Part shown: piece after piece, positions 4,695 to 34,173 of the stretch
Layout of the letters: every line of letters starts with the position of its first letter
How positions within the stretch are numbered: the first letter of the stretch is position 1
From: Bradyrhizobium sp. NFR13
Lineage (GTDB): Bacteria > Pseudomonadota > Alphaproteobacteria > Rhizobiales > Xanthobacteraceae
Reading direction: 5' to 3'
Length of the DNA: 64,000 bases
Assembly: GCF_900114605.1 (NCBI RefSeq)
Contig: NZ_FOTP01000004.1
Span: forward strand, 124,001-188,000
Translations under genes and position numbers: made by a program
The notes under the pieces: generated by a model
The model's input: the letters and a program-made list of their open reading frames with translations, nothing else
What the model was told of the DNA's origin: nothing
Databases searched by the model: none

Positions 4695-4712
4695 GGAATT
4701 GGATTTAGGCTG

Positions 4713-6346: not shown

Positions 6347-7116
6347 AAGCTTTTCGGGACGTTCGTATTCTTCCTGTCGTCTTGGTGGCGGTTTTCGGTC
6401 TGGCGATTCTCAAGATCGCCGGTCTGGTGATCGATGGCGGCTACGTGTTCAACTACGATCCGCAGCCACAGGCGCAGGCGAAAGGATCGTGGGCGCAGGA
6501 GATGTTCAACTTCCCGGGTGGCAAGCCGGCAGACGGCGATATTACCGGCTCGGTCCCTGCCAAGAAGGAAGAGCCGAAGCCCGCGGTGGCAGCGCCTGCA
6601 GCGATCGAACCGACCAGCAATCCGCCTGTCGAACTCTCTCCTCAAATCTCGCCCGCTGAACGCGCTATTCTCGAACGGCTGCAAGCGCGCCGTCAGGAGC
6701 TGGAAACGCGTGCCCGTGAGATCGACATTCGCGAGAGCCTGCTGAAGGCCGCCGAGAAGCGCATCGAAACCCGCGTCGATGAATTGAAGGGCGTCGAAGC
6801 CGGTATCAAGACGGCGAACGACCAGAAGAGCGAAGTCGATGCTGCCCGCTTCAAGGGTATCGTCACCATGTATGAAAGCATGAAGCCGAAGGACGCTGCG
6901 AAGATCTTCGACCGGCTGGAAATGCCGGTGCTGTTCGAGATCGCCTCGCAGATCGCGCCTCGGAAGATGTCCGACATTCTCGGTCTGATGCAGCCGGAGG
7001 CCGCTGAGCGCCTCACTGTCGAACTGGCGCGCCGCGCCTCGGGCGGCGAACGGTCTGCTGCGGCGACGGAACTGCCCAAGATCGAAGGCAGGCCGATCCA
7101 GCAGGGCCGGAATTAA
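6343..7116 (+). CDS. MotE-like flagellar protein with MgtE-N-type domain
   Basis: The 257-residue product has one N-terminal membrane helix (residues 8-29), a Pro-rich linker, a coiled coil (about 105-150, ERLQARRQELETRAREIDIR) and a C-terminal MgtE-N/FliG-like domain with YESMKPKDAAKIFDRL and APRKMSDILGLMQPEAAERL. This is the layout of alphaproteobacterial MotE, described as a chaperone for the periplasmic stator protein MotC. It is coupled to the DUF6468 gene by an ATGA overlap. motA, motB and motC are not here. The family call is solid, the exact role inferred. Confidence 0.82.
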   Translation: MKAFRDVRILPVVLVAVFGLAILKIAGLVIDGGYVFNYDPQPQAQAKGSWAQEMFNFPGGKPADGDITGSVPAKKEEPKPAVAAPAAIEPTSNPPVELSPQISPAERAILERLQARRQELETRAREIDIRESLLKAAEKRIETRVDELKGVEAGIKTANDQKSEVDAARFKGIVTMYESMKPKDAAKIFDRLEMPVLFEIASQIAPRKMSDILGLMQPEAAERLTVELARRASGGERSAAATELPKIEGRPIQQGRN

Positions 7117-7125
7117 AGAAAATAA

Positions 7126-7156
7126 TTAACAAATCCTTAGAGGGCGGAATCTAGAT
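7126..7156 (+). promoter_or_regulatory. Candidate promoter of the large TPR gene
   Basis: TTAAC at 7126 is followed 24 bp later by TCTAGATTC. Before flgB the same arrangement is TTAACC then CCTAGCTC 25 bp later. CTAG plus TTC resembles the GCTANAWC -10 of alphaproteobacterial sigma-73 promoters. Only one TTAA half-site with the right spacing is present, so CtrA control is a guess. Confidence 0.3.
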
Positions 7157-7214
7157 TCGACACAGGGCGGACGATCGGCCGTCCTTCGAGCATCTGGCTG
7201 AGAGACATTTCTGA

Positions 7215-10895: not shown

Positions 10896-10907
10896 GGGCG
10901 AGCTTCG

Positions 10908-11660
10908 CTACTGCCCGTAACTCTGCACCAGACTGCCCGCGACCAGCGACCAGCCATCCACCAGCACGAAGAAGATCAGCTTGAACGGCAGTGACACCAC
11001 CGCCGGTGGCAGCATCATCATGCCCATCGCCATCAAGACCGAGGCGACCACGAGATCGATGATCAGGAAGGGCAGGAACAGCAGGAAGCCGATCTCGAAA
11101 GCGCGCTTCAGCTCGGAGATCATGAAGGCTGGCACAAGGATGCGGAGCGACAGGTCGTCAGGCGTCGCTGGAATTGGCTCGCCCGACAAGTCCATGAACA
11201 GCTTGAGATCCTTCTCGCGCACGTTCTTCTGCATGAAGCCGCGCAGCGGAATGGATGCGCGCACCAAAGCTTGTTCGACGGTGATGTCGTTGGAGATCAG
11301 CGGCTTGATACCGTCGTCATAGGAACGTTGTAGCACCGGCCCCATCACGAAAGCCGTAAGGAACATCGCCAGCGCGATGATCACCGAGTTCGGCGGAGCC
11401 GTCGCTGTACCCAATGCGGTGCGCAGCAGCGACAGCACGACCACGATGCGTGTGAACGACGTCATCATGATCAGGATCGACGGTGCTATCGACAGCACCG
11501 TCAACAACGCGATCATCTGCACGGCGCGCTCGGTGACGCCGCCGCCACCGCCGCCGAGATTGATGCTGATGTCCTGCGCCATCGCGGGACCTGCGAAGGT
11601 CCCGGCGGCGATCAGAACGGAAAGGAAAAATACTCTACGCGGGAGGTTCGCCGAACTCAC
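10908..11660 (-). CDS. fliP: Flagellar type III export gate protein FliP
   Basis: FliP is a membrane subunit of the flagellar export gate. The 250 residues include a cleavable signal peptide (ending PAMAQD), a Gly-rich stretch, the TFLI-type MMTSFTRIVVVLSLLRTALG segment and the C-terminal IDLVVASVLMAMGMMMLPPAVVSLPFKLIFFVLVDGW signature, with four membrane segments. It starts with GTG, overlapping the fliO stop as GTGA, so it is coupled to fliO. The 3' end converges with the TPR gene. Confidence 0.96.
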   Translation of the reverse strand: MSSANLPRRVFFLSVLIAAGTFAGPAMAQDISINLGGGGGGVTERAVQMIALLTVLSIAPSILIMMTSFTRIVVVLSLLRTALGTATAPPNSVIIALAMFLTAFVMGPVLQRSYDDGIKPLISNDITVEQALVRASIPLRGFMQKNVREKDLKLFMDLSGEPIPATPDDLSLRILVPAFMISELKRAFEIGFLLFLPFLIIDLVVASVLMAMGMMMLPPAVVSLPFKLIFFVLVDGWSLVAGSLVQSYGQ

Positions 11661-12739
11661 GAACTGGACTTCGGCCGACCCAGCAGGGAGGCCATCTCGT
11701 CTTCGAGATTTTCAAAACCCGATTTGACCGGCGGGACGACCGGCGGCGCCTCTGCGCGGGCAGGGCTGGCGATCGAGACTTCCGGCGACCGCGAAGCTGG
11801 GCGGATCGATGGTGCCTCAGGCGCTACCGACGGAGCGCCGACCCGAGGCTCAGGCGCAGTATCCTGGCGGGCTTCGCCAGCAGGGCGGCGCAAGGCGGCT
11901 TCGAGACGCTGCGCCATATCGGCGAGGTTCTGGTCGGCAGACGACACGGCAACTGCCGGAGCGGGCGCAGGGGCAGGCGTCGGTGCGGGTGGCGCAACGA
12001 CAGGGGCGGGAGCCGGGGCGACAACCTGAGCAGGCGGGGGCGGCGCTGCCGCGACGGGACGGTCCGGCGTGCGGGGCTGCGGCATGGTGCGGATCGGCGG
12101 ATCGGCACGCATCGGGCGCGGCATCATCGGCTCGCTACGCGGTGTCTCGCTACGTGGCATTTCACTTCGCGGAATCGGCCGCTGCGGGAAGAGGTCGTTG
12201 CGTGGCGCCGGTTCGGCGCGCGGCGCGGGTTCCGGCGCGAGGCTCGCGACCGGATCGGGACGACGCTCCGGCAAAGGCGCGGCCGGGCGACGTGGCTCTT
12301 CGATAAAGGAGGGGCGGGCGGGACGCGGCGCCGGCTCCGGCACATGCGGTTCGGAATCGAAGCCGGAGTCGCTGCTCTCTGCCCAGCTCGGGGCCTCAGG
12401 CAGCGATGGGCCACGGCTTGCCACATCGGCGGCGAGGCCGCCGCGCTGCGGGGCCTGTTCGCGGCCGGGCATGGCGCGGACGATATTGGGCTCGACGACG
12501 ATGTCCGAGGGGCCACCGATCATCAGCAGGTGTTCGACATTGTCGCGGCGGACCAGCACCAGGCGGCGGCGGCCGTCCACGGCCGCGGCGTCGATCACTG
12601 CGAGCCGCGGCAGGCGCCCGCGGCTGGTGTTGTTGCCCAGCCGGTTGCCGGCGAATCGGCGCACCAGCCAGGCCGTAAGCCCGATCAGCGCCAGCACGAC
12701 AACGAAGGCCAAGATAAATTGCACCGATGATTGCATCAT
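11657..12739 (-). CDS. fliO: Flagellar export protein FliO with long proline-rich tail
   Basis: FliO helps assemble the FliP ring. From the ATG at 12739 the product has 360 residues: a membrane helix (about 4-24, FILAFVVVLALIGLTAWLVR), a compact FliO domain (RLPRLAVIDAAAVDGRRRLVLVRRDNVEHLLMIGG) to about residue 90, then some 270 residues rich in Pro, Ala, Arg and Glu with repeated RSEMPRSETPRSEP. Classical FliO has 100-140 residues, so the tail is an unusual extension. Translation is coupled to fliP. The start is weakly supported; an ATG at 12736 is equally possible. Confidence 0.85.
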   Translation of the reverse strand: MMQSSVQFILAFVVVLALIGLTAWLVRRFAGNRLGNNTSRGRLPRLAVIDAAAVDGRRRLVLVRRDNVEHLLMIGGPSDIVVEPNIVRAMPGREQAPQRGGLAADVASRGPSLPEAPSWAESSDSGFDSEPHVPEPAPRPARPSFIEEPRRPAAPLPERRPDPVASLAPEPAPRAEPAPRNDLFPQRPIPRSEMPRSETPRSEPMMPRPMRADPPIRTMPQPRTPDRPVAAAPPPPAQVVAPAPAPVVAPPAPTPAPAPAPAVAVSSADQNLADMAQRLEAALRRPAGEARQDTAPEPRVGAPSVAPEAPSIRPASRSPEVSIASPARAEAPPVVPPVKSGFENLEDEMASLLGRPKSSS

Positions 12740-13114
12740 AAAGTCCCCAGCCAGACAGGGTGGCTGCAACGGCCACATCCAGAGTTGCGGGTGTCATAGC
12801 CCCGCACGCTCCGCACGCAGCGTGAATCACGCCCCATCTGTTAACGCCCCACGGCAGAACCTGCCGTTGGTTAATAATAAACTATGAATCGCTGCAGCCA
12901 AAACGACTTCTGCCGCCCCGTCGTATGGCTCATGGGAATGGTTAATCGGCCAATTCAGGCGAAAAAGCGTTGGCATGTGCGAAAAACGTCAATTTTGCAG
13001 CATTCATTTACGGTTCGGTAACAAGTACCACCGGAAATTAACTTCGTATTAACCATGCAGGCGGCAAATTCTGCCTAGCTCAGGACGCTTCGTCCGGGCG
13101 GGCGGAGAAGGCCG
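12740..13114. promoter_or_regulatory. Divergent fliO / flgB intergenic region
   Basis: This 375-bp gap separates fliO-fliP from the flgB operon. It contains a perfect 7-bp inverted repeat ACGGCAG/CTGCCGT at 12851-12867, several TTAA motifs (12840, 12871, 12942) and the full CtrA box at 13038. The sequence is clearly more AT-rich than the flanking genes. No coding sequence is seen. Confidence 0.5.
13038..13054 (+). promoter_or_regulatory. CtrA-binding box upstream of flgB
   Basis: TTAA, seven bases (CTTCGTA), then TTAACC is an exact match to the CtrA consensus TTAA-N7-TTAAC. It lies 61 bp before the flgB start. A possible -10 (CCTAGCTC, like GCTANAWC) follows at 13074-13081, which places the box over the -35 region as in CtrA-activated promoters of Caulobacter. 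The operon it precedes is followed by cckA, the kinase that feeds CtrA. The match is seen; binding is inferred. Confidence 0.65.
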
Positions 13115-13528
13115 ATGGCGATCAGCGACATGCCGATGTTGTCGGCGCTGCGCACCAAGATGCAGTGGCACCAGGAGCGCCAGCGTGTGCTGGCCGAAAA
13201 CATCTCCAATTCGGACACTCCGAACTTCCGCCCCCGCGATCTCGTGGAACCGAAGTTCGACAAGGCGGGCAATACCTCCGTCATCGCTGGTGGCATGGGC
13301 TCGCTGCCGATGATGCGCGCCGCCGGCACCAATATCCTGCCGACCGGCGGCTCGGCCTCCTTCAACCAGAACAGCCGGGTCGGCTACGAGACCCGCCCCG
13401 CCGGCAACGCCGTCAATCTGGAAGACGAGATGCTCAAGGTCTCGGCCAACCAGATGGACTATGCCGCCGCGACCTCGCTCTACACCCGCAGCCTCGGTCT
13501 GTTGAAGACCGCCATCGGCAAGCGCTGA
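13115..13528 (+). CDS. flgB: Flagellar proximal rod protein FlgB
   Basis: FlgB is a proximal rod subunit. The 137 residues begin MAISDMPMLSALRTKMQWHQ and carry the rod signature AENISNSDTPNFRPRDLVEP and the C-terminal YAAATSLYTRSLGLLKTAIG. The length is normal. GGAGAAGG lies just upstream of the ATG. It opens the flgB-flgC-fliE-fliQ-fliR-flhB operon behind a CtrA box. Confidence 0.96.
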   Translation: MAISDMPMLSALRTKMQWHQERQRVLAENISNSDTPNFRPRDLVEPKFDKAGNTSVIAGGMGSLPMMRAAGTNILPTGGSASFNQNSRVGYETRPAGNAVNLEDEMLKVSANQMDYAAATSLYTRSLGLLKTAIGKR

Positions 13529-13557
13529 CGCCGCCGCGCGCATAAAGGGATCTCATC

Positions 13558-13983
13558 ATGGCCGACGATATCAGCGACTTCTCGCGCTCCATGGGCATCG
13601 CGACCTCCGGTCTGCGCGCCCAGGCGGGGCGCATGCGGGTGATTTCGGAAAACATCGCCAATGCACAGTCCACAGCGCAGAACGCCGGCGGAGACCCCTA
13701 TCGTCGCAAGGTGCCGACCTTCAAATCCGAGCTGGACCGCTCGCTGGATGCCCGCGTCGTTGGTCTCGGCCGCATCAGGCCCGACCAGTCTGCGTTTCCC
13801 ACGCGCTACGAGCCCGGTAATCCCGCGGCGGATGCTGCTGGCAACGTCAAATACCCCAACGTGAACTCGTTGGTGGAAATGACGGACATGAAGGAAGCGC
13901 AGCGCTCCTACGAAGCCAATCTCAACATCATCAGCGCCACGCGCCGGATGATTCAACGCACGCTCGACATCCTCAAGGCCTGA
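13558..13983 (+). CDS. flgC: Flagellar proximal rod protein FlgC
   Basis: FlgC is a proximal rod subunit. The 141 residues show the N-terminal SMGIATSGLRAQAGRMRVIS with SENIANAQSTAQNAGGDPYR, a YEPGNPAADAAGNVKYPNVN segment and the C-terminal EMTDMKEAQRSYEANLNIIS, all classical for FlgC. AAGGGAT precedes the ATG. It lies 29 bp after flgB and 16 bp before fliE. Confidence 0.96.
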   Translation: MADDISDFSRSMGIATSGLRAQAGRMRVISENIANAQSTAQNAGGDPYRRKVPTFKSELDRSLDARVVGLGRIRPDQSAFPTRYEPGNPAADAAGNVKYPNVNSLVEMTDMKEAQRSYEANLNIISATRRMIQRTLDILKA

Positions 13984-13999
13984 ACAGGACAGCTGAACC

Positions 14000-14326
14000 A
14001 TGGCAACTCCCTCTGTCGCCGCCAATGCTTACTCGGCTCTCTCGCGCATTATGGACGCCGGTGGTGGCGTTGGTGGCGGTCTCAACAAGGCGGCGGATGC
14101 CGGTGGCGGTCAGTCGTTCGGCGCGGTCCTCAAGGATGCGCTTGGCAGCGTGCTCGATGCCGGCCGCAAGTCGGATGCGCAGACCATCGCAATGGCCAAC
14201 GGCAAGGCCAATGTGATGGACGTGGTTACGGCAGTTGCGGAAACCGACGTCGCGGTGTCGACGCTGGTCTCGGTGCGCGATCGCGTCATCCAGTCCTACG
14301 AAGACATCATGAAAATGCCGATCTGA
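14000..14326 (+). CDS. fliE: Flagellar hook-basal body protein FliE
   Basis: FliE links the MS ring to the proximal rod. The 108 residues have a Gly/Ala-rich N-terminus, FGAVLKDALGSVLDAGRKSD and the conserved C-terminal block VMDVVTAVAETDVAVSTLVSVRDRVIQSYEDIMKMPI. Its place directly after flgB and flgC is the standard order. The length agrees with the family. Confidence 0.95.
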   Translation: MATPSVAANAYSALSRIMDAGGGVGGGLNKAADAGGGQSFGAVLKDALGSVLDAGRKSDAQTIAMANGKANVMDVVTAVAETDVAVSTLVSVRDRVIQSYEDIMKMPI

Positions 14327-14368
14327 TCCTCCTCACCACGAACAGCGCGTAACACAAGGATTCATGCA

Positions 14369-14632
14369 ATGACCGGCCCCGAAACTCTCGACGTTGCCCG
14401 CGACGCGATCTGGACGATTGTGATCGTGTCCGGCCCGCTGATGGTCGTGGGCCTCCTGGTCGGTGTCGTGGTATCGCTGGTGCAGGCGCTAACCCAGATC
14501 CAGGAACAGTCGCTGGTCTTCGTACCGAAGATTCTCGCGGTCTTTGCCACCATGATGCTCGCGTTACCATTCATGGGGGACGCATTGTCGAGCTACATGC
14601 TACGGATATCGTCGCGAATCATCGGGGGGTGA
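14369..14632 (+). CDS. fliQ: Flagellar type III export gate protein FliQ
   Basis: FliQ is a small two-helix subunit of the export gate. The 87 residues contain ARDAIWTIVIVSGPLMVVGLL, VVSLVQALTQIQEQSLVFVPK and a second hydrophobic helix, which is the full family pattern. ACAAGGA lies before the ATG. It is 13 bp upstream of fliR. Confidence 0.96.
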   Translation: MTGPETLDVARDAIWTIVIVSGPLMVVGLLVGVVVSLVQALTQIQEQSLVFVPKILAVFATMMLALPFMGDALSSYMLRISSRIIGG

Positions 14633-14645
14633 TGCACAATCCCGT

Positions 14646-15416
14646 ATGCGCATCGATGTCTCGCTCCTGCCCGTTCTCGCCGCTGCCTTCATGCTGGCCT
14701 TTGCCCGTATCGGCACAATGGTGATGTTGATGCCCGGGTTCGGCGAGAGCAACATTCCCGCGCGGACCAAGCTGTCGATCGCATTGGGGCTGACCCTCAT
14801 CATGCTGCCGGCCCATCGCGGCGCCTACAACGTCGATATGGGGTCGATCGTGCCGCTGCTGGTGATGCTGGTGCATGAGATCATCATCGGCGTTGTGCTC
14901 GGCGCCACCGCGCGCGTCACGCTGTCGGCGTTGCAGGTTGCCGGATCGATCATCGCGCAGCAACTCGGTCTCGGCTTTGTGACCTCGGTGGATCCGACGC
15001 AGGGTCAGCAGGGCGTGCTGATCGGCAATTTTCTCACGATGCTCGGCATTACGCTGCTGTTCGCCACCGATACGCATCACCTTGTGATCGCCGCCATCAA
15101 TGACAGCTACAGGATCTTTGCGCCGGGCGAACTCATGTCGACGGGCGATGTGGCCAAGCTTGCGACCAATGCCTTCGCGGCAGCCTTCAAGATCGGCACG
15201 CAGCTTGCCGCGCCTTTCCTTGTGTTCGGCCTCGTCTTCAATATGGGGCTTGGCGTGCTGGCGCGGCTGATGCCGCAGATGCAGGTCTATTTCGTCGGCG
15301 TGCCGCTTTCGATCATGATCGGATTCCTGATCTTCGCCGTCGTGCTCGCGACCATGATGGGGACCTACCTCGAATACGTCACCGGCGTCATGCAACAAAT
15401 GATGTCGCGGATATAG
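14646..15416 (+). CDS. fliR: Flagellar type III export gate protein FliR
   Basis: FliR completes the FliPQR export gate. The 256 residues are a multi-pass membrane protein with MLAFARIGTMVMLMPGFGES, VHEIIIGVVLGATARVTLSA, QQLGLGFVTSVDPTQGQQG and GLVFNMGLGVLARLMPQMQVYFVGVPLSI, all recognised FliR segments. It stands directly before flhB, the usual order. Confidence 0.96.
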   Translation: MRIDVSLLPVLAAAFMLAFARIGTMVMLMPGFGESNIPARTKLSIALGLTLIMLPAHRGAYNVDMGSIVPLLVMLVHEIIIGVVLGATARVTLSALQVAGSIIAQQLGLGFVTSVDPTQGQQGVLIGNFLTMLGITLLFATDTHHLVIAAINDSYRIFAPGELMSTGDVAKLATNAFAAAFKIGTQLAAPFLVFGLVFNMGLGVLARLMPQMQVYFVGVPLSIMIGFLIFAVVLATMMGTYLEYVTGVMQQMMSRI

Positions 15417-15425
15417 GGGGCACGG

Positions 15426-16499
15426 ATGTCCGACGACGATTCCGAGAAGACACATGACCCCACGCAAAAAAAGCTCGACGACGCTCACCAACGCGGCGAC
15501 GTAGCCAAAAGCCAGGAGGTCAACACCTGGTTCCTGCTGGCCGGCGCGACGCTGGTCTTGTCGACCTTCAACGGCTCGGTCGGCGGCGGGCTGCAGACAC
15601 CGCTTAAGAACCTTCTGCAAAATTCCTGGATGATACGGACCGACGGGCCCGGACTTCTGATGTTGGCCAAGAGCCTCTGCGTGTCCATCCTGTCCACCAT
15701 GGGCATGCCGATCCTGTTTCTCGTGATCGCAGCGCTTGCCGGCAATCTGATCCAGCACCGGCTGGTGTTCTCCACCGAAGGTCTGGTGCCGAAGTTCAGC
15801 AAGCTGTCGCCGATGGAAGGCGCCAAGCGCCTCTTCGGCAAGCAGGCGTTCGCCAATTTCCTGAAGGGACTGTTCAAGCTCGTTCTGCTCGGCGCCGTGA
15901 TGTGCGCGGTGCTGTGGCCCGAGCGTTTTCGTCTGGATGCGTTGATCCACATCGATCCGTCGGCGATCCTCGGCATCACCACATCGCTGACGCTGCAGCT
16001 GATGGGGTCGGTGGTGGCGATGCTTGCCTTCGTCGCCATTGCCGACTTCTTCTTCCAGTACCGCACCTGGTACGAGAAGCTGAAAATGTCGCTGCAGGAA
16101 GTGAAGGAAGAATACAAGCAGTCCGAGGGTGACCCCCACATCAAGGGCAAGATCAAGCAGCTGCGTCAGCAGAATATGAAGAAGCGCATGATGGCCGCGG
16201 TGCCGAAGGCGTCGGTGATCATCACCAACCCGACGCACTACGCCGTGGCGCTGTCCTATGAACGCGGCATGACTGCGCCGATCTGTGTCGCCAAGGGCGT
16301 CGACAATATCGCGCTGAAGATCAGGGAAGTGGCCAGCAAGCACGACATTCCGATCGTCGAAAACGTGCCGCTGGCGCGCGCGCTTTACGCCACCGTCGAG
16401 ATCGACGAGGAAATTCCGGGCGAACACTACCATGCGGTGGCCGAAGTCATTGGCTACGTGATGAGCCTGAAGCGCGGACTGTCCGGGCGCATGCAATGA
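15426..16499 (+). CDS. flhB: Flagellar export switch protein FlhB
   Basis: FlhB controls the export substrate switch and cleaves itself. The 357 residues begin with the soluble SEKTHDPTQKKLDDAHQRG motif, span four membrane helices, and carry the autocleavage motif NPTH within ASVIITNPTHYAVALSYERG in the cytoplasmic domain. The end, VIGYVMSLKRGLSGRMQ, is also typical. It is the last flagellar gene in the window and lies 160 bp before cckA. Confidence 0.97.
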   Translation: MSDDDSEKTHDPTQKKLDDAHQRGDVAKSQEVNTWFLLAGATLVLSTFNGSVGGGLQTPLKNLLQNSWMIRTDGPGLLMLAKSLCVSILSTMGMPILFLVIAALAGNLIQHRLVFSTEGLVPKFSKLSPMEGAKRLFGKQAFANFLKGLFKLVLLGAVMCAVLWPERFRLDALIHIDPSAILGITTSLTLQLMGSVVAMLAFVAIADFFFQYRTWYEKLKMSLQEVKEEYKQSEGDPHIKGKIKQLRQQNMKKRMMAAVPKASVIITNPTHYAVALSYERGMTAPICVAKGVDNIALKIREVASKHDIPIVENVPLARALYATVEIDEEIPGEHYHAVAEVIGYVMSLKRGLSGRMQ

Positions 16500-16659: not shown

Positions 16660-19233
16660 ATGACCGCCGAGACCGACCACGATCGCCAATCGATGACGGC
16701 GCAGAATCCGGTTCTGCACGAGCCGGCCCGGCGCAGCGGCAGCATTGTGCTGGTGCTGCTGATTGCCGCCGCGATCATCGCCTGCGCCGTGGCGTTCATG
16801 ACTCTCGGCCGCGCCCAGGCGCAGCCTTATATTCTGGGCCTGCTGGCGCTGCTGGCGATGGTCGGGCTGTTCGTGTTGTTCGCCTTTGCCGCCGGTATTG
16901 TCCGCTTTGCCGATCGCGCCTCTGACGATCCGATCATGCGCACCGTGGCCGATAACGCCTTTGACGGTATCGCGGTCACCGATGCGCGGGGCCATGTGGT
17001 CTATGCCAATGCTGCCTATCTCAATTTGACCGGCGCGGCCTCCGCGCAGGATGCGCGACCGGTCGAGCGCGTCTTCATCGGTAATCCCGATGTCTCCGAA
17101 GCCGTCTTCCGCCTGCTCAAGGCTGCCCGCGAGGGCAAGCGCCAGCAGGAGGAGGTCCGTGTTGCGGCGCCTGACGGCAGTCATGGCCGCTGGCTGCGCA
17201 TGCGCGTGCGTCCGCTGGGTGAAGGCAAGCGCGAGGCCAAATCCACGGTGTGGTCGGTGGCCGATATTTCCCGCGATCGGCAACGCCAGGAAGACGTTTT
17301 CCAGGAATTGCAACACGCCATCGAATATCTCGATCATGCGCCTTGCGGCTTCTTCTCGGTCAATCCAAAGGGCGAGCTGGTTTACGTCAACGCCACACTG
17401 GCGAACTGGCTCGATCACGATCTTGCCGAGATCGGCTCCGGCGGCCTGAAGCTGACCGACATCGTCTCCGGCGACGGCGCCTCGTTGCTGACGTCCATTG
17501 TGCCGATGCCCGGCGAAGTCAAAACCGAAGTCTTCGACATCGACCTGCGCATGCGCAATGGCAAGACCATGCCGGTGCGGCTCTATCACAAGCTCGCTTT
17601 CGGTGCCGACGGCGTGCCGGGTGCGTCGCGCACTCTTGTCATCAGCCGCGCCCGCGACGAGCGTTCGGATCCGCAGCGCGCCGCCGAAGTGCGCTTCATG
17701 CGCTTCTTCGACCACACGCCGATGGCGATTGCGACCGTGGACCGCGACGGCAACGTGGTGCGCGGCAATGCCCGTTTCGCCAAGCTGGCGCAAAGCCTGA
17801 GCACATCGGGCGCGGTCAACAAGTCGATCCTCGCCGCGGTCAGTGACCGCGACCGCAATCAGCTGGTCTCGGCCATCGGCCACGCCGCACAAGGGCAGGG
17901 CGATATCCCGCCGGTGGAAGCGCTGCTGGAAGGCGCCAAGGAGCGCTGGGGCCAGTTCTTCGTCACCGCCGTGGAGGAGAACGAGCGCGAGACCGAAGCC
18001 GCCATCGTCTACATGCTGGAGACCACCGAGCGCCGCACGCTCGAGAACCAGGTCAACCAGGCGCAGAAGATGGACACCATCGGCCAGCTGGCCGGCGGCA
18101 TCGCGCATGACTTCAACAACGTGCTCTCCGCCATCATGATGGCCAACGACTTCCTGCTGAACGCGCACAAGCCGACCGATCCGTCGTTCCAGGACATCAT
18201 GCAGATCAAGCAGAATGCGACGCGCGCGGCGACGCTGGTGCGCCAGCTGCTGGCGTTCTCGCGCCGCCAGACGCTGCGGCCGACCGTACTCAATCTCGGC
18301 GATGCCCTCTCCGATATCGATCTGCTGCTGAAGCGACTGATCGGCGAAAAGGTCAAACTCGAAGTCGTGCACGGCCGCGATCTATGGCCGGTGAAGGTCG
18401 ACATTTCGCAATTCGAACAGGTGATCGTGAATCTCGCGGTCAATGCGCGCGACGCGATGCCGGATGGCGGCGCACTGACCGTGCGTACGGTGAATGTTTC
18501 GGCCGAGGAAGCCGGACGGCTATCCTACAAGGGCATGCCGCCATCGGATTATGTGCGGATCGATGTCAGCGACACCGGCACCGGCATTCCCGCCGATATC
18601 CTAGAAAAGATCTTCGAGCCGTTCTTCTCCACCAAGGACGTCGGCAAGGGCACCGGCCTCGGCCTTTCCACGGTCTACGGCATCGTCAAGCAGACCGGCG
18701 GTTTCGTCTACGTCGATTCAGAGCCGGGCAAAGGCACCACGTTCCGTATCTTCCTGCCGCGCCATCATCAGGAAAAGGAAGTTGCTCCCGACCCGGCGAT
18801 CGCGGCCGCTGTCGCTGCGAAGGAAGCCGCGGCCGACGCCAAGCCGCGCGCGGACCTGACCGGGCAGGGTACCATCCTGCTGGTCGAGGACGAAGAAGGC
18901 CTGCGCGCGCTGAACGCCCGCGGTCTGCGCTCGCGCGGCTACACGGTGGTCGAAGCCGGCAACGGCGTCGAGGCGATGGAGGTGTTCGACGAGCAGAACG
19001 GCGCCATCGATCTCGTGGTTTCCGATGTCGTGATGCCGGAGATGGACGGGCCGACGCTGCTCAAGGAAATGCGCGCACGTAATGCGGACATTCGCATCAT
19101 TTTCGTGTCAGGCTATGCCGAGGAAGCCTTCGAAAAGAGCCTGCCGGAAAACCAGCAATTCGCCTTCCTGGCCAAGCCGTTCGCCCTGAGCGCGCTGATC
19201 GCCAAGGTCAAGGAAACCATGGCGCCGAACTAG
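16660..19233 (+). CDS. cckA: Cell-cycle hybrid histidine kinase CckA
   Basis: CckA is the inner-membrane hybrid kinase/phosphatase that, through ChpT, sets CtrA phosphorylation. The 857 residues show two membrane helices (about 22-46 and 55-82), three PAS-like domains (about 90-430), a HisKA domain with the phospho-accepting His near 483 in [15 protein letters not shown], an HATPase domain ([33 protein letters not shown]), and a receiver domain with the acceptor Asp near 789 ([13 protein letters not shown]). It follows flhB, and the CtrA box before flgB fits the regulatory link. Confidence 0.95.
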
Positions 19234-27881: not shown

Positions 27882-28583
27882 GTGAACAATTTTCATCTGG
27901 TCGTTGTTACTGCATGTGTGCTTGCAAGTCCGACCGCAGTCCGCGCCCAATCCATTATCCACTCCGAACAGACCCGCACCACGCTGGCGGCGTCCATCGA
28001 TGTAGCCGGCCGCACGACACTGACGGCGTCCGTGACCAGTGAACGCGGTGGGGGCGTCCCGGGCGGCATCGTCCGCTTTGTCGATGAGACGACGCTCATG
28101 GTGCTTGGCTGGGTCGATGTGGCCCATCCGTCGCTGGTGGTCCAGCGACTGCCGCCGGGTCCGCATCGCTTCCGTGCGGATTATATGGGGACGTCCAACT
28201 ATCTGCCTGTCGTGGTGCAGCCGAGCCAATCCGCGGTGGTGGAGGAAACCATACGCGTCATGCCGGCGGTGGCGCTGTCGTCGTCCGAGAATCCTTGTCC
28301 GTCTGGAGCGGTGGTCACGTTGACGGCCGCGATTGCCGGCGGTGTTGGCATTCCGAAAGGTGCCGTGACGTTTCGTGATGGTGAGCAGATTCTCGCAGCC
28401 CATGTCGGCCTCGACCGCGCCGGCACGGCGTCGTTCACCACCTCGGCGCTGGCGGATGGCACGCGCTGGATCACGGCTGAATATGAGGGCGACACGGTTC
28501 ATGCGCCCGCGGCATCGCCGCCGCTGACGGTGGATGTCGGAGTAGCCCGTTTGCGAAGCTCGCTGTTGCGTACGAGCGACTAG
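27882..28583 (+). CDS. Exported protein with tandem bacterial Ig-like domains
   Basis: The 233-residue product starts at GTG with GGAG eight bases upstream. It has a signal peptide (HLVVVTACVLASPTAVRAQ). Two Ig-like repeats follow: TTLTASVTSERGGGVPGGIVRFVDE with GPHRFRADYMGTSNYLP, and VVTLTAAIAGGVGIPKGAVTFRDGE with TRWITAEYEGDTVHAPA. These match the Big_5-type repeat (G-x-V-x-F-x-D ... Y-x-G-x-x-x-x-x-P). It is probably extracytoplasmic, with adhesion or structural roles possible. Its 3' end converges with the YciB gene, with the stops overlapping by 4 nt. Confidence 0.8.
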   Translation: MNNFHLVVVTACVLASPTAVRAQSIIHSEQTRTTLAASIDVAGRTTLTASVTSERGGGVPGGIVRFVDETTLMVLGWVDVAHPSLVVQRLPPGPHRFRADYMGTSNYLPVVVQPSQSAVVEETIRVMPAVALSSSENPCPSGAVVTLTAAIAGGVGIPKGAVTFRDGEQILAAHVGLDRAGTASFTTSALADGTRWITAEYEGDTVHAPAASPPLTVDVGVARLRSSLLRTSD

Positions 28584-29152
28584 GCGCCCATCTGCGGCGC
28601 CGTCGCTGCAGCTGCGCGAAGCTTGCGGCCGACGATCACCCGGAACACGACATACTGGATCGCGAAGGCCAGCACCTTGGCGCCAATGGCTACGACCGAC
28701 ACATAGAACGCCCACAGCTTCATATCGCCGGTCATGGCCACAGCGATGACACCGGCGCCAAGCGCGAACATCAGCGCGGCCCAGGCATAGCCCGCAGCGG
28801 TCACATATTCAGGGATCGTCTCGCTGACGATGGGTGGCAGGTAGCGCAGCATCCAGCCCTTGCGCAGCATGATCGCGCCGATGGCGAAATGTCCAATGCT
28901 GGGCTTGGCCAACACGAAGCGCGGATCCTTGGTCAGCAGCGTCGCGCCACCGAGGACGACCACCAGCGCGAGACTGGCATAGGTCATTACGTCAAGCTTC
29001 TGCCCCTTGACGCGGGCATAGACGAACTGTGCGACGGCACCCGCAATCGCCACGCAGGTCGCCAGAAGGACGTCACCGGTGACGAGATAGAGCACCAGGA
29101 AGACGATGGTGGAGAAGAAATCCTGGCCAAGTTTGGCGAATACGTCCTTCAT
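28580..29152 (-). CDS. YciB-family inner-membrane protein (septation protein A-like)
   Basis: The 190-residue product has about five or six membrane helices and the YciB marks KDPRFVLAKPSIGHFAIGAI, LRKGWMLRYLPP and a C-terminal AIQYVVFRVIVGRKL. YciB proteins are linked to envelope integrity and division in other bacteria, but the biochemistry is unclear. The start is the ATG at 29152; the frame further upstream overlaps the next gene and is not used. It is the last gene of a three-gene operon whose first product is a half-length paralogue. The operon promoter carries the TetR-type operators at 30312 and 30367. Confidence 0.85.
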   Translation of the reverse strand: MKDVFAKLGQDFFSTIVFLVLYLVTGDVLLATCVAIAGAVAQFVYARVKGQKLDVMTYASLALVVVLGGATLLTKDPRFVLAKPSIGHFAIGAIMLRKGWMLRYLPPIVSETIPEYVTAAGYAWAALMFALGAGVIAVAMTGDMKLWAFYVSVVAIGAKVLAFAIQYVVFRVIVGRKLRAAAATAPQMGA

Positions 29153-29208: not shown

Positions 29209-29784
29209 TCAGGGCTTCAGCGGTTCTGCCGGCTTCGCAGCGCCGTATTTTGCGCGGCGATATTGCGGATACCATTTGGTGAAGGCAACGGCAGAGTTGC
29301 GAGCGGCAAAAGCCACCGCAAAGCCGATCCATAGCGGCAGCGAGGGCATGTAAATGATCAGCATATCCGCCACCAGCATCAGCACAAATGCGCCGGCCCA
29401 GGCCCAGGTGAGGATGTAGTTCGCCTTCATGAAGCCGGGCAGCTTCGAGGTTTCGGCGTCGACCATCTCGCGGGCATATTGCAGGGTGAAGGGCAGGCGG
29501 ATCGCCAGCGACAGCAGCACGATTGAGAGCAGGCCGACATCGACGGCGAGGCGGACGGCCACCGCGCTCCAATTGCCGTCGACCAGCGTGATGTAGCAGC
29601 CGAGCGCGCTGAAGATCAGCACCGAGCCTGCTGCGAGCATCTTCAGCGAGCCGCCGCGGATCACGTCCCCGACCACGATGCCGAGCGACAGCGCGGCTGC
29701 GGCGAAGAGGCTGATCGCGACCGATGACACCATCATCAGGATGGCGAAAGCACCGAACGGGGCGATGATGAGAAAGGAAGCCAT
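29209..29784 (-). CDS. Multi-pass membrane protein of unknown function
   Basis: The 191-residue protein has four to five membrane helices (about 5-35, 45-66, 78-98, 125-145, 148-165) and a basic C-terminal tail (KWYPQYRRAKYGAAKPAEP). I recognise no family. It lies 56 bp upstream of the YciB gene and 90 bp downstream of the half-YciB gene, all in the same direction, so the three are probably one transcript. Confidence 0.75.
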   Translation of the reverse strand: MASFLIIAPFGAFAILMMVSSVAISLFAAAALSLGIVVGDVIRGGSLKMLAAGSVLIFSALGCYITLVDGNWSAVAVRLAVDVGLLSIVLLSLAIRLPFTLQYAREMVDAETSKLPGFMKANYILTWAWAGAFVLMLVADMLIIYMPSLPLWIGFAVAFAARNSAVAFTKWYPQYRRAKYGAAKPAEPLKP

Positions 29785-29874
29785 GACGTTTCCAGTTCGG
29801 GCTATCTTGACGTTGTGAAGGTGCGTTGCGGGCTCGCTTATGAAGTCGTTGCGTCGCTGTGCAGCAGCCTGCGA

Positions 29875-30198
29875 TCATATATCTTGTTGTGAGAGCGGGC
29901 AGACATTGCCGACCGGCGTGAAAACTTCATGAGAAGCCGAGGCGGCCGCGCCTGATGGTTCGATACCGACGAGCGTGGTCCCGGTCACAACCAGCACGAG
30001 GGCCAGGCTGCCCCAGCTTGCCGTCCGGGTCATCATGTCCGGCCTGCGATATGCGGTTCGTGCGAGAACGAACTGCGTAGCAGCGCTTGCGATGGCGACG
30101 GCAGTCGCGATCAGCACGTCTCCTGCGACCGCAAAGGTCGTGAAAAAGGCGATGGTGGAAAGGAAGCCGATGGCCAGTTTGGCGAGGACGTTGATCAT
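29875..30198 (-). CDS. Half-length YciB paralogue
   Basis: The 107 residues begin MINVLAKLAIGFLSTIAFFT and align with the first 75 residues of the YciB protein encoded at 28580-29152 (MKDVFAKLGQDFFSTIVFLV). Shared segments are the FAVAGDVLIATAVAIASAAT / YLVTGDVLLATCVAIAGAVA helix and the MMTRTASWGSLALVLVVTG / VMTYASLALVVVLGG helix. The C-terminal half is missing; a short unrelated tail ends it. It could be a truncated duplicate or a small functional partner. It is the first gene after the operator-bearing promoter. Confidence 0.65.
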   Translation of the reverse strand: MINVLAKLAIGFLSTIAFFTTFAVAGDVLIATAVAIASAATQFVLARTAYRRPDMMTRTASWGSLALVLVVTGTTLVGIEPSGAAASASHEVFTPVGNVCPLSQQDI

Positions 30199-30311: not shown

Positions 30312-30385
30312 ATCTTTACGATGTCAAGATTTCCTCTAGGCCTTGCCAGCGGACTCGTCAACAAAAATCTTTACACTGTCAAAAT
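30312..30385. promoter_or_regulatory. Operator pair A before the YciB-type operon
   Basis: Two 19-bp imperfect palindromes, ATCTTTACGATGTCAAGAT (30312-30330) and ATCTTTACACTGTCAAAAT (30367-30385), are 55 bp apart centre to centre. On the minus strand TTGACG (30361-30356) and TAGAGG (30338-30333), spaced 17 bp, form a weak promoter pointing to the half-YciB gene, so one operator covers the start site and the other lies upstream of the -35. The same arrangement occurs at 31849-31919 next to tetR, which suggests TetR control. Confidence 0.6.
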
Positions 30386-30425
30386 TATGTGAGCCGAGAT
30401 GTTTAACTGTCATTGGATCAATGGT

Positions 30426-31829
30426 TTATACGGAATAAACCCAGTTGCCGTGGAAGCCTGCTGGTACCCGGTGACCGAGCTGGACAAGGGCGATCGGCCC
30501 CGCGGCGACATCGGTGGCGTTGAACACTGCCAGATCGCTGCGGTTCTGCCGGGCGCGCCACACCACAGCGAGCAGCCAGCCGTCGCCTTCGGCTGCATCC
30601 TTGCCGCGCGCGACGAAGACCGGCTCGGAGATGCTGTCGCCGAGCGGCAGCATATATTGGCCGAGCCTGACGCCGTCGCGCCAGACATGTGTGATCCCGG
30701 AAAAGGCCTTGCTGGCGCCCGGTGCCGGATTATCGCAGGCGTACCAGCCTTGCGTGCTGACGAGGCCAGAGCGGCGTTCGTCGATGCGCGGGAATTCGCC
30801 GGTGACGTCGTCGAGATAGGTGCGGGTGAAACGATCGGTATTGGCGGCCAGATCGAAGGTCCACCGACAAAGTCGCGCATTGGATTTCGCAGGATCTGTC
30901 GGCGAGCCGTCGGGATGCGTGAACAGCGGCGCTTCCTCGGACTGCATGACGTCGGCGATGATGCGGTCGCCTTCCTCCCACGCATTCATCACATGGAAGA
31001 CGTAGCAGGCCTCGGCGCGAAACCACTTGATATCATCGGCACTGCCGCCGCGTTTCATCACGCCGACATAAGACCCCTTGTCCGGCTCCCACGCATAAGG
31101 TGGGCGGCCCGAGCGTGCGCGGTCCATGCTGCCGGTGATCGGCAGGATCGGAAACAGCAGGTAGTTCTCCGTGACGATGAAGTCGTGCACCATGCTGGCA
31201 TAGGGCGCATCGAAACGTTCGAAGCGCGTCACGATGCCCGATGAATCGATTGCGCCGAACGAGATCGTCGGACTGAAGATTCCCCGGGCATTATAGCCGA
31301 AGAAATTCATCTCTCCGGTAACGGGATCGATCTTCGGATGCGCGGTGAATGGTCCGCCAATGCGCCCGCTATAGTTCTGATAGCCGAGCGTCTTTAGCGT
31401 GCCCGGTTCGATCTCGGTCGGAGGATGGCCTTCCTCCAGCGCGAGCAGGCGGCCGGCATGAAAGACGATGTTGGTATTGGCCGCGCCTGAGTCATTCCCA
31501 AGCGAAGCGGGGGCATCCGGCATTTTCTGGCCGAAGCCGCGATAGAGCGCGCGGCCGGCATCGTGCTCGGCGAGAAATTTCGGCGTGTGGATCCAGCGAT
31601 TGCGATAGCTCGCGCGGCCGTCCTCGATGTGAAAGGCATGCAGCATGCCGTCGCCGACAAACCAGTGCGAGCCTTTGGTTTCGAATTGAGGATTGGGGCC
31701 GTTGCGGTAGAGCGTGCCGTTGAGCTCACGTGGCAGTTCACCGACGACTGTCAGGAACGGCGCGTCGCACTCCATCGGGATCGGCGCAAGATTGTCATGA
31801 GCAGCCTCGATCGGGTCCAGCAGCGCCAT
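30426..31829 (-). CDS. Carotenoid oxygenase (carotenoid/stilbene cleavage dioxygenase)
   Basis: Members cleave a C=C bond of carotenoids, apocarotenoids or lignostilbenes with a non-haem Fe(II). The 467-residue product has the four iron-binding His: 164 in FTAHPKIDPVTGEMNFFGY, 215 in MVHDFIVTENYLL, 279 in CYVFHVMNAWEEGDRI and 460 in GFHGNWVYSV. The N-terminal GTLYRNGPNPQFE is also a family mark. The ATG at 31829 gives the normal start. It is divergent from a tetR gene, with an operator pair between them. Whether the substrate is a carotenoid or a stilbene cannot be read from the sequence. Confidence 0.92.
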   Translation of the reverse strand: MALLDPIEAAHDNLAPIPMECDAPFLTVVGELPRELNGTLYRNGPNPQFETKGSHWFVGDGMLHAFHIEDGRASYRNRWIHTPKFLAEHDAGRALYRGFGQKMPDAPASLGNDSGAANTNIVFHAGRLLALEEGHPPTEIEPGTLKTLGYQNYSGRIGGPFTAHPKIDPVTGEMNFFGYNARGIFSPTISFGAIDSSGIVTRFERFDAPYASMVHDFIVTENYLLFPILPITGSMDRARSGRPPYAWEPDKGSYVGVMKRGGSADDIKWFRAEACYVFHVMNAWEEGDRIIADVMQSEEAPLFTHPDGSPTDPAKSNARLCRWTFDLAANTDRFTRTYLDDVTGEFPRIDERRSGLVSTQGWYACDNPAPGASKAFSGITHVWRDGVRLGQYMLPLGDSISEPVFVARGKDAAEGDGWLLAVVWRARQNRSDLAVFNATDVAAGPIALVQLGHRVPAGFHGNWVYSV

Positions 31830-31848
31830 CGTCGTCTCCCATGCTGTT

Positions 31849-31919
31849 ATCTTTACGTTGTCTAGATTGCTAGATGTGAGCGGTCGGCCCGTCAAGCAAA
31901 ATCTTTACAGTGTAAAAAT
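31849..31919. promoter_or_regulatory. Operator pair B between the carotenoid oxygenase gene and tetR
   Basis: ATCTTTACGTTGTCTAGAT (31849-31867) and ATCTTTACAGTGTAAAAAT (31901-31919) are 52 bp apart. All four operators of pairs A and B share the left half ATCTTTAC; the right half is close to GTCAAGAT. For the oxygenase gene, TTGACG (31895-31890) and TAGCAA (31872-31867) on minus, 17 bp apart, give a promoter whose start site falls in the first operator. The second operator covers the -35 of tetR. Autoregulation plus repression of the oxygenase is the simplest reading. Confidence 0.65.
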
Positions 31920-31938
31920 GACGACCTATAACATCACC
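31904..31938 (+). promoter_or_regulatory. Predicted tetR promoter, possibly giving a leaderless transcript
   Basis: TTTACA (31904-31909) and TATAAC (31927-31932) are 17 bp apart. The expected start site, 6-8 bp after the -10, falls on or next to the ATG at 31939. The -35 lies inside the operator at 31901-31919. Confidence 0.45.
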
Positions 31939-32673
31939 ATGACGAAGCAGACCAAGATCGCGAAACCGCGCGCCGTGCCGCAAGACCGCCGCAAGAAGGC
32001 CGCAGGAAATCCGCAAGCCAGGGCCGCGGCGAAAAAAAACGCCGGCGCCGAATCTCCCTATCATCATGGGGACTTGCACGGCGCGCTGCTGAAAGCCGCG
32101 GAGATCGTGCTGGAGCGCGATGGACTATCTGGCCTGACGCTGCGCGCCGTCGCCCGCGAAGCCGGCGTCTCGCATGCGGCTCCGACGCATCACTTCGGCG
32201 ATCTCACTGGCCTCGTCAGCGAACTCGCTGCTATCGGCTTTCGCAACTTCAACGCCACAATGACTGCGGCTGGTGCGAGCGGCACGACGCCGCTCGAAAG
32301 CGCGCTCGCCCGCGCCAAGGCCTATCTCGCTTATGCACGTGCGCAGCCTGGCATGTATCAGCTGATGTTTCGCACCGAACGGCTCGACATGACCCGGCCT
32401 AATCTGCGCGAAGCAGCCAATGCATCCTTCGCCGGTCTCGCCAGCGTGGTCGGCGCGCAGCATCCCGGCAACATCGCCACCGATGCATTGACCATCGAGC
32501 AGGCTGCGCAGATCGCGCGGACATGGTCGCTGGTGCATGGTTTCACCATGCTGACCCTCGATGGCCGGCTCACTGACATCCTGCGCCGCTTGCCTGATGG
32601 CACCGACGCAGAGAAGCTGTTCGTCGAGATGCTGAAGATTACTGTTGCCAGGGTGATGGAAACGCCGAAGTAG
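31939..32673 (+). CDS. TetR-family transcriptional regulator
   Basis: The 244-residue protein has a basic tail of about 40 residues, then a TetR DNA-binding domain: YHHGDLHGALLKAAEIVLER, DGLSGLTLRAVAREAGVSHA and APTHHFGDLTGLVSELAA. The ligand-binding domain contains LAYARAQPGMYQLMFRTERL and WSLVHGFTMLTLDGRL, as in the C-terminal domain common to TetR/AcrR members that sense hydrophobic compounds. I chose the ATG at 31939 from the predicted promoter; an ATG at 31918 would add 7 residues but lies inside the operator. It is divergent from the carotenoid oxygenase gene. Confidence 0.88.
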   Translation: MTKQTKIAKPRAVPQDRRKKAAGNPQARAAAKKNAGAESPYHHGDLHGALLKAAEIVLERDGLSGLTLRAVAREAGVSHAAPTHHFGDLTGLVSELAAIGFRNFNATMTAAGASGTTPLESALARAKAYLAYARAQPGMYQLMFRTERLDMTRPNLREAANASFAGLASVVGAQHPGNIATDALTIEQAAQIARTWSLVHGFTMLTLDGRLTDILRRLPDGTDAEKLFVEMLKITVARVMETPK

Positions 32674-32734: not shown

Positions 32735-33352
32735 CTAGCGCGATGCCATTGCCAGCGATGCAACGCGACCACTCATGCCAACAACGCTGATCTTGTCCGT
32801 CTTGCAATCGAAGCCGCGTGCCAGCTCGTCGGCAGCCTGGCGCGCGGCTTTATTGGCGTCGCGCGTGCCGTTCACTTCGATATGAGCGACGTGGCACACC
32901 GCGCCCGGCGGCAGGCGGGTCACAACCAGTACCTGTCGTGTTTTTGGTGCTTTTTTTGACTGGCTGCCATCGCCGACGGCCACATGCCAGCGCTGGATCA
33001 TCGCGAATGGCTTGCCGCCGCTGAGACGCCATTCGATCGTATTGGTGGTTGAATTGAAGGCGGCAAAGCCCTGTGACGCGGCCGGTTCGTCCTCGGCGGC
33101 CTTCAACGTGCGGCCGACGGTGATGGTTTCGCGCAAATCGCCTTCGGTCTTCACGACGACGAGGCCCGCAGGCCCGCGGCAGGTCCACTGGGCGCTGTCA
33201 TCGGCATCGACTTCGCCGGCTGCGACGGGCATCTTGCGGCAATCCTTCGCTGCCGTGGAGCTGTATATGCTCGTGATGTCGCTGGCCGCCGCAAGGGATG
33301 TGGCGGAGATGACGGCGGCCAGAGCGGCGGCGAAAACGGGAAATCGTTGCAT
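32735..33352 (-). CDS. Exported hypothetical protein
   Basis: From the ATG at 33352 the 205-residue product has a signal peptide (FPVFAAALAAVISATSLAAA). The mature part carries STAAKDCRKMP, SAQWTCRGPAGLVVVKTEGD, GAVCHVAHIEVNGTRDANKA and ELARGFDCKTDKI, with four Cys. The ANKAARQAADELARGFDC ending resembles a small periplasmic family common in Bradyrhizobium, but I cannot assign a function. It faces the tetR gene tail to tail. Confidence 0.7.
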   Translation of the reverse strand: MQRFPVFAAALAAVISATSLAAASDITSIYSSTAAKDCRKMPVAAGEVDADDSAQWTCRGPAGLVVVKTEGDLRETITVGRTLKAAEDEPAASQGFAAFNSTTNTIEWRLSGGKPFAMIQRWHVAVGDGSQSKKAPKTRQVLVVTRLPPGAVCHVAHIEVNGTRDANKAARQAADELARGFDCKTDKISVVGMSGRVASLAMASR

Positions 33353-33501
33353 GCGAAGGCATCCGGACAAACAGGTGACGATGCTTTGACGTTCACAAAC
33401 TGGGGAAGGTTCAACGGAAGCGGCTGACAAAGCTGGCTGAATCGCGCTAAACAGCTTGGTCAGCCTTCATTTTGTCTCCAGCAGCGTCAGTTCCTCATCC
33501 C

Positions 33502-34173
33502 ATGCCCGCCTCGACTTCCGCCAAGCCATATCGCATCGGCCGCTCCAAAACAGGTCTCGGTCTTTTCGCCACCCAGCCGATCAAGAAGGGCGTCAAGATC
33601 ATCCGCTACTTCGGGCCTTTGCTGGATTCGAAGAACGAGAAACACGACGCGATCGAGAACAAGTACCTGTTCCAGATCAGCAAGCGCTGGACCGTCGACG
33701 GTTCGATCCGCAAGAACATCGCGCGCTATATCAACCATGCCTGCAAGCCGAACGCCGAATCCGACGTCAACGCGACAAAGAAGAGGATCACCATCCGCTC
33801 GATCAAGAAGATCGAGCCGGGCGAAGAGATCAACTACGATTACGGCACGGAGTATTTCAAGGAATACCTGAAGCCGATCGGCTGCAAATGCGATGCCTGC
33901 GAGAAGAAGCGCAAGAAGAAGCGGGCCGAGGCGCGCGCCGAAAAACTGAAGGCCAAGGAAAAGGCCGAGCGCAAGGCGCTGAAGAAGGAAGAAAAGGCGA
34001 AGGCCAGGAAAGCGAAGGCCAAGGCCAAGAAGGCGAAGTCTTCAGGCAAGGCGGCTTCGGGCAAAGCCAAGACGACCAAGGCCGCCGCGAAGAAGACCTC
34101 CGCAGCGACCAGGGCCAAGTCGGTTAAGTCCGGTAAAGCAAAGGCCGGCAAGGCCAGGAGCAAGGCGGCTTAA
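33502..34173 (+). CDS. SET-domain lysine methyltransferase with histone-H1-like tail
   Basis: The 223 residues form a SET domain (about 8-135) with RSKTGLGLFATQPIKKGVKI, the RYINHACKPNAE motif (75-86, matching RFxNHSCxPN), GEEINYDYG (107-115) and a post-SET CKCDAC zinc motif (128-133). The tail (134-223) is almost only Lys, Ala, Glu and Arg, with KAKAKAKKAKSSGKAA-like repeats as in bacterial histone-H1-like proteins. S-adenosylmethionine-dependent methylation of a DNA-associated or own lysine target is likely. The ATG at 33502 is preferred over a TTG at 33472. Confidence 0.85.
   Translation: MPASTSAKPYRIGRSKTGLGLFATQPIKKGVKIIRYFGPLLDSKNEKHDAIENKYLFQISKRWTVDGSIRKNIARYINHACKPNAESDVNATKKRITIRSIKKIEPGEEINYDYGTEYFKEYLKPIGCKCDACEKKRKKKRAEARAEKLKAKEKAERKALKKEEKAKARKAKAKAKKAKSSGKAASGKAKTTKAAAKKTSAATRAKSVKSGKAKAGKARSKAA

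Follow-up and report, generated by a model that had tools for sequence, protein, structure and literature searches.

Paired candidate operators of a TetR-family regulator beside a carotenoid-family oxygenase and small membrane proteins in Bradyrhizobium sp. NFR13

Local repressors of the TetR family combine a helix-turn-helix domain with a ligand domain, face a divergent target gene, act through palindromic operators and are expected to regulate their own expression. In Mycobacterium kansasii the TetR-family protein CcoR represses the divergent carotenoid oxygenase gene cco1, whose transcript is 100-fold higher in a ccoR mutant; an orthologous locus, Rv0653c-Rv0654, is present in the non-carotenoid producer M. 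tuberculosis (PMC9861118). Here we analyse a 64,000-nucleotide stretch of Bradyrhizobium sp. NFR13 (contig NZ_FOTP01000004.1, positions 124,001 to 188,000; hereafter the window), in which a tetR gene likewise stands next to a carotenoid oxygenase gene and is oriented divergently to it, with three membrane-protein genes (M1, M2 and M3) lying beyond it and four 19-bp palindromes placed in two pairs.

The likeness to CcoR-Cco1 is one of arrangement and extends to the host: M. tuberculosis is called a non-carotenoid producer (PMC9861118), and the window's genome likewise has no CrtI over the cut-off. Given this precedent, the oxygenase half of our finding is of a known kind. Section 2.4 of the CcoR-Cco1 account describes neither an operator nor membrane-protein genes in the regulon, unlike the window locus (PMC9861118). 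A preliminary description of this DNA knew of no described system that joins these genes; this does not stand for a TetR with an oxygenase, given CcoR-cco1, and for a TetR with these membrane proteins the open-access literature, partly surveyed, yielded no example. The same survey found no precedent for the two-operator architecture of each unit, the distal DUF2306 member or the specificity covariation described below, nor did it find a carotenoid oxygenase, a TetR and YciB together.

Compared with local TetR repressors in general, the system in the window differs in that two operators at a near-fixed distance bracket the promoter, and do so again at each unit, and in that the targets are small membrane proteins without known function. 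We consider it very probable, from the comparative sequence evidence below, that this TetR represses its own gene and a two-operator regulon of very few local and distal targets, acting as a local repressor. Such a regulon would be defined by sequence for several membrane-protein families that lack a known function, and comes with a predicted code of one residue to one base for a TetR subfamily.

Operator pairs and their promoters

The tetR gene (31918..32673, plus strand) has a likely ATG start at 31918 and encodes a 251-aa TetR-family regulator with the recognition helix VSHAAPTHHFGD, which includes His91. Its product passes both gathering cut-offs, at 32.9 bits for PF00440 (cut-off 24) and 52.5 bits for PF13305, TetR_C_33 (cut-off 26.8). 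The half-site ATCTTTAC occurs in exactly four copies when both strands of the window are searched, at 30312, 30367, 31849 and 31901, against an expected count of 0.32, and the full sites read ATCTTTAC-GAT-GTCAAGAT, ATCTTTAC-ACT-GTCAAAAT, ATCTTTAC-GTT-GTCTAGAT and ATCTTTAC-AGT-GTAAAAAT. Four copies of the half-site were reached in none of 100 dinucleotide-preserving shuffles, and ten matches to the full palindrome pattern in none of 100 such shuffles of the window. The four palindromes of the preliminary description therefore hold in coordinates, half-sites and within-pair spacing (55 and 52 bp), and lie beyond chance. Candidate operator 1a (ATCTTTACAGTGTAAAAAT, 31901..31919; weight-matrix score 35.6) covers the likely tetR start codon and 1b (ATCTTTACGTTGTCTAGAT, 31849..31867; 29.7) touches the -10 of the oxygenase promoter, while the second pair consists of 2a (ATCTTTACACTGTCAAAAT, 30367..30385; 34.3) and 2b (ATCTTTACGATGTCAAGAT, 30312..30330; 34.2), no strand being assigned to any of these sites.

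Across the whole genome (6,224,354 bases), ATCTTTACNNNGTNNARAT without mismatches is found at these four places only. At up to two mismatches it gives 23 forward and 17 reverse matches where the reversed control already gives 6 and 7, so most of the weaker matches to this loose pattern are no evidence. The stricter ATYTTKACRNYGTMAARAT, again at up to two mismatches, gives 12 places against 0 in the reversed control; five of the 12 have at most one mismatch, namely the four window sites and G000:C7:218980 on another contig. The initial inventory of four sites was correct for those four but overlooked a distal site 5' of a DUF2306 gene, treated below, and a weaker fifth site 5' of M2 (ATCTTGACGTTGTGAAGGT, 29804..29822, no strand assigned; weight-matrix score 16.8). 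The latter has 2, 3 and 4 mismatches in the close relatives L042, L044 and L043, respectively, and no counterpart at up to four mismatches in L041; being weak, and with mismatches that grow across close relatives, it is probably a decaying operator.

Inside each pair lies a predicted TTGACG-N17-TAG promoter, as the preliminary description had proposed, and both were read directly from the sequence: TTGACG-N17-TAGCAA (31867..31895, minus strand) between 1a and 1b points toward the oxygenase gene, and TTGACG-N17-TAGAGG (30333..30361, minus strand) between 2a and 2b toward the membrane-protein genes. Because both are on the minus strand, transcription would be directed away from tetR, into the oxygenase gene and into M1-M2-M3. 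We compared 56 loci, comprising the window, 15 loci of the genus and 40 of the family, the latter hand-picked to cover genera out of a list of 68 TetR matches from beyond the genus. A script detected 68 operator pairs in 50 of these loci, spaced 51-56 bp apart, and none on their reversed sequence, and for 61 of the 68 pairs a TTGAC starts 5 bp behind the operator on the upstream side. It is conservation in orthologs, not a consensus score, that supports both predicted promoters, and the geometry of the pairs is that expected of two dimers about five turns apart that would flank and cover one promoter.

On the mechanism we propose, a TetR dimer would bind each 8-3-8 palindrome, so that every target promoter would have one operator just upstream of its -35 box and another at its -10/start site; at some five DNA turns from each other, the two would jointly cover the promoter between them. 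As operator 1a overlaps the likely tetR start codon, autoregulation at the tetR/oxygenase promoter is likely. We infer repression and its relief by a ligand: a small, probably hydrophobic compound would free the promoters of repressor, and the carotenoid-family oxygenase would then be turned on jointly with M1-M2-M3 and the distal DUF2306 membrane protein.

Linkage to the regulator and to gene units

The preliminary description expected the motif to travel with tetR among relatives, and this is what we found. A TetR match at E<=1e-20 is present in all 18 genomes of the genus set (Tardiphaga) and an ortholog, 60-100% identical, in 16 of them; the two others carry a paralog only, and both are among the less complete assemblies. 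In the family set of 296 genomes, 83 have a TetR match at E<=1e-35, and the motif with at most one mismatch occurs in 77 of these 83 compared with 1 of the 213 TetR-negative genomes (Fisher p 1e-62, uncorrected for relatedness). This value overstates independence because the genomes are related, although the separation is still nearly complete. The nearest TetR paralog (35-38% identical, helix APYRHF) has no operator site in 14 distinct loci (15 are listed, of which L035 and L056 are one place).

The recognition helix covaries with the operator. With operator base 3 excluded from site scoring, 72 of 76 loci could be counted; in L053 and L139 the helix was unreadable by our rule, and L136 and L157 have no site at the threshold. 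Where residue 91 is His, the majority base 3 is C in all but one of 68 loci (67); it is A in all three with Asn (L114, L137 and L151) and G in the single locus with Arg (L182). By half-site, C is found in 217 of 274 (His), A in 9 of 12 (Asn) and G in 4 of 4 (Arg). L113 and L114 represent two such regulators in one genome, and their operators differ. This covariation ties the sites, as far as sequence comparison can, to this particular TetR.

M1 (29875..30198, minus strand) is a 107-aa, half-length YciB/IspA-like membrane protein whose match to PF04279 (23.8 bits, below the gathering cut-off of 28.7) spans model positions 2-67 of 176. M2 (29209..29784, minus strand) is a 191-aa membrane protein with no Pfam or NCBIfam match, and M3 (28580..29152, minus strand) a 190-aa YciB/IspA-like membrane protein that matches PF04279 above gathering, at 57.8 bits. 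The cut-off of the IspZ model TIGR00997 (165.2 bits) is reached by neither M3 (49.7 bits) nor M1 (18.6 bits), and a canonical IspZ scoring 201.1 bits is encoded elsewhere in the genome (G000:C6:1220752). The gene first called YciB is thus YciB-like in family and not a true YciB/IspZ, and a septation role for M3 is rejected, because M3 is a paralog and the true IspZ is encoded elsewhere. In profile comparisons M2 gave probabilities of 0.0-0.3% against ABA4-like proteins, the second gene of the ABA4 loci, DUF2306 and YciB, and M3 gave 0.2% against ABA4-like proteins; with profiles this thin (4 to 8 sequences) no kinship among these membrane families was found, though they may be distantly related.

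Among the 56 loci, M2 is present in 42, M3 in 44 and an intact oxygenase in 24, leaving 32 without one. Where oxygenase and M2 occur together, two operator pairs are found in 15 of 16 loci. M2 loci without an intact oxygenase have one pair in 24 of 26 cases, this single pair lying between tetR and M2; the exceptions are L045, which retains only the last part of the oxygenase, and L113, whose oxygenase is split between frames. Loci with an oxygenase in which M2 was not found have one pair in 7 of 8, the exception (L144) being a 4,824-base contig that ends beyond the second pair, and the six loci with neither gene have one pair in three and none in three. As pairs track units, the oxygenase seems to behave as an optional unit that brings an operator pair along, and tetR with the small membrane proteins as the commoner module. 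The earlier link between carotenoid cleavage and membrane proteins accordingly survives as predicted shared control, but cleavage is not a constant part of it. That the two pairs serve different regulators, or that the membrane genes merely hitch-hike, is very improbable: duplication could give neighbouring genes repeated promoters, but pairs follow units across genera, and a single pair of the same kind stands between tetR and M2 where no intact oxygenase is present, so that this explanation is largely refuted.

Control by a single TetR of all four sites, as proposed at the outset, is backed by the co-occurrence, the conserved pairs and the covariation of recognition helix and operator, and the predicted extension of that control to oxygenase and membrane-gene unit alike also by the way pairs follow units. 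Comparison among relatives shows the sites, in their pairs and with their geometry, to be linked to this TetR and to covary with its recognition helix.

Several observations weigh against such a regulon. Six of the 83 TetR-positive family genomes lack a site at up to one mismatch; five of them were inspected as loci L122, L145, L137, L136 and L140, the sixth (G174) lying outside the inspected set. By the script's rule, L122, L136, L137, L139, L140 and L145 are the six loci without a pair. For these the weight matrix finds degenerate pairs 54 bp apart in L122 and L145, a variant pair 53 bp apart in L137, two weak sites 33 bp apart in L140 and no site at all in L136, and L139 stops at a contig edge. 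A generic sigma-70 consensus scan returned neither promoter, and their -10 boxes are poor. L123 carries both oxygenase and M2 with one pair. At base 3, 57 of 274 His half-sites do not have C and 3 of 12 Asn half-sites have G; the link of Asn to A comes from three loci that may share one origin, and that of Arg to G from one locus. Finally, the AlphaFold model of M2, built from 8 sequences, has a predicted local distance difference test score (pLDDT) of 48.

Distal sites and distant homologs

In 7 of the 18 genus genomes a distal site lies 5' of a DUF2306 membrane gene next to gyrA. Nine distal sites were found in the genus, and the two that do not precede DUF2306 (L078 and L079) were treated as chance. 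DUF2306 also adjoins TetR homologs in L137, together with an OsmC-family gene, and in L151 and L154, and in L114 a paralogous regulator faces DUF6790 and an oxygenase. The regulon thus appears wider than first read, and would extend to the DUF2306 gene.

Homologs about 35-51% identical in other families keep the site as well, which is a further line tying it to this TetR: at 15 of 15 such class-level loci the top-scoring site upstream beats every one of 300 base shuffles. A second site scoring at least 13 is present in 14 of the 15, with L157 as the exception, and spacings of 20-24, 32-33 or 54-55 bp prevail. In another five class-level loci two sites lie 26-35 bp apart, the second being weak in L185. 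The divergent partner could be named in 9 of these 20 loci: ABA4-like in five, DUF2306 in two (L151 and L154) and an oxygenase in two (L180 and L182). In L153, L155, L159, L160, L161 and L163 the partner open reading frame, from crude calls, has no Pfam match, and L152, L157, L183, L184 and L185 were outside the partner search. Upstream of tetR in L156 and L158 are three operators, at offsets 0, 33 and 55 and 0, 32 and 54, respectively, the middle one containing TTGAC; this three-operator form may be ancestral and the source of the -35 box in the two-operator form.

Two related groups of regulators have palindromes of their own. For the nearest paralog, ATGTTAAAGCCCTTCACAT or a sequence near it is a top-two match in 10 of the 14 distinct loci, placed some 26-29 bp before the aligned tetR start (L028-L030, L032-L037 and L039), and may be the operator of that paralogous regulator. 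A third TetR (30-33% identical, helix AAYKHF) is divergent from another carotenoid oxygenase (37-38%) in L128, L129, L131 and L141, and its palindrome differs, reading ATGTAACCG[C/G]TGTTTACAT in the first three and ATGTAATTGATGTTTACAT in L141.

The oxygenase, candidate signals and neighbouring genes

The oxygenase gene (30426..31829, minus strand) encodes a 467-aa protein of the carotenoid-oxygenase (RPE65/CCO) family, scoring 440.7 bits against PF03055 (cut-off 27). Its nearest solved sequences include lignostilbene dioxygenases, and four of its histidines line up with histidines in three solved relatives, lignostilbene dioxygenases among them; we take these four to be the iron ligands. Its best NCBIfam score, 420.6 bits, is to the lignostilbene-alpha,beta-dioxygenase model NF053778, and it scores 309 bits against the 8'-apo-carotenoid 13,14-cleaving dioxygenase model NF052295; both values fall below the respective cut-offs of 800 and 675.

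The preliminary description had named a stilbene among possible inducers, and the solved relatives and best model score would fit a phenolic stilbene or lignin-derived compound as both inducer and oxygenase substrate. The window oxygenase shares family and aligned histidines with the lignostilbene dioxygenases NOV1, NOV2, LsdA and PbLSD, but scores far below the cut-offs and differs in the pocket: Lys and Tyr of the solved enzyme 6ojw align with its Glu132 and Phe99, both of them conserved in all 24 orthologs. In a docking model of PbLSD, a pocket Lys contacts the resveratrol hydroxyl with a Tyr nearby (PMC6097328). We read the pocket residues of PbLSD and 6ojw as equivalent. Given the replacement of Lys and Tyr in every ortholog and a score so far under the cut-off, a phenolic stilbene is disfavoured and we consider it unlikely.

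A tentative alternative is that the regulator senses a carotenoid or apocarotenoid and that the regulon serves carotenoid breakdown, as in the mycobacterial CcoR-Cco1 system. Repression of cco1 by CcoR favours this (PMC9861118). So does the recurrent pairing of such a TetR with a carotenoid-family oxygenase, in 24 of the 56 loci, in L180 and L182, and with the paralogous regulator in L114, as do the ABA4-like genes faced in 5 of the 20 class-level loci, plant ABA4 being part of neoxanthin synthesis. It is opposed by the 32 loci without an intact oxygenase and by the distribution of CrtI. The best score in the window's genome is 83.7 bits, against a cut-off of 238.1, and 20 of the 24 genomes whose locus keeps an intact oxygenase likewise have none over the cut-off, four having one. 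Over the 80 of 83 TetR-positive genomes searched (G059, G100 and G127 lying outside the search), 11 have CrtI over the cut-off; with so few, a home-made carotenoid substrate is not evident in most of them. For the window's genome we rejected such a substrate on the absence of CrtI over the cut-off, the CrtI route being the only one examined.

A regulon that answers envelope stress from membrane-active or peroxidised lipids, with the oxygenase as an accessory, would account for the membrane proteins M2 and M3 being the commoner part and for the homolog beside an OsmC-family gene and DUF2306 in L137. This is a single OsmC case, however, M2, M3 and DUF2306 have no known function, and the repeated pairing with oxygenases would be left unexplained, so we hold it doubtful as a full account. 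As a signal, membrane stress is nearly as plausible as an apocarotenoid or other exogenous polyene, itself tentative.

Within the regulon as we read it, the common function is most likely to take up, handle or remove an exogenous unsaturated compound that is soluble in membranes. We further suggest, speculatively and as something improbable in its full extent, that the TetR subfamily (helix SHxAPx[H/N/R]HF, with a His/Asn/Arg-to-C/A/G code at operator base 3) acts in Alphaproteobacteria as an undescribed sensor for a polyene or apocarotenoid that dissolves in membranes and comes from plants or soil, and that its targets across lineages (M2, YciB-like, DUF2306, DUF6790, ABA4-like and carotenoid-family oxygenases) form one guild that would bind, isomerise, move or cleave such compounds in the membrane. 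If true, this would give several families of unknown role their first function. The ligand, if found, would explain carotenoid-family oxygenases in bacteria without evident carotenoid synthesis, and could yield a compact biosensor with known operator architecture.

Around the locus, a 205-aa protein without a Pfam match (32735-33352, minus strand) is kept in many relatives between tetR and the gene for a SET-domain protein whose long tail is rich in lysine and alanine (33472-34173, plus strand; PF00856, 83.3 bits), which has no operator before it. The SET-domain gene has tetR nearby at 35 of the 40 family loci and at 11 of the 15 from the genus, and is not within the examined stretch of the four closest relatives, L041-L044. 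A 233-aa protein with apparent Ig-like repeats, judged by eye (27882-28583, plus strand), shares 4 bases with the end of M3, which lies on the opposite strand, and is present in 7 of 15 genus loci. No tRNA was found in the window. By likeness, we take positions 1-16499 to be a flagellar cluster with FlgH, FlgA, FlgG, FlgF, FliM, FliP, FliO, FliR and FlhB-like products, followed at 16660-19233 by an open reading frame that presumably encodes a PAS-domain hybrid histidine kinase-like protein.

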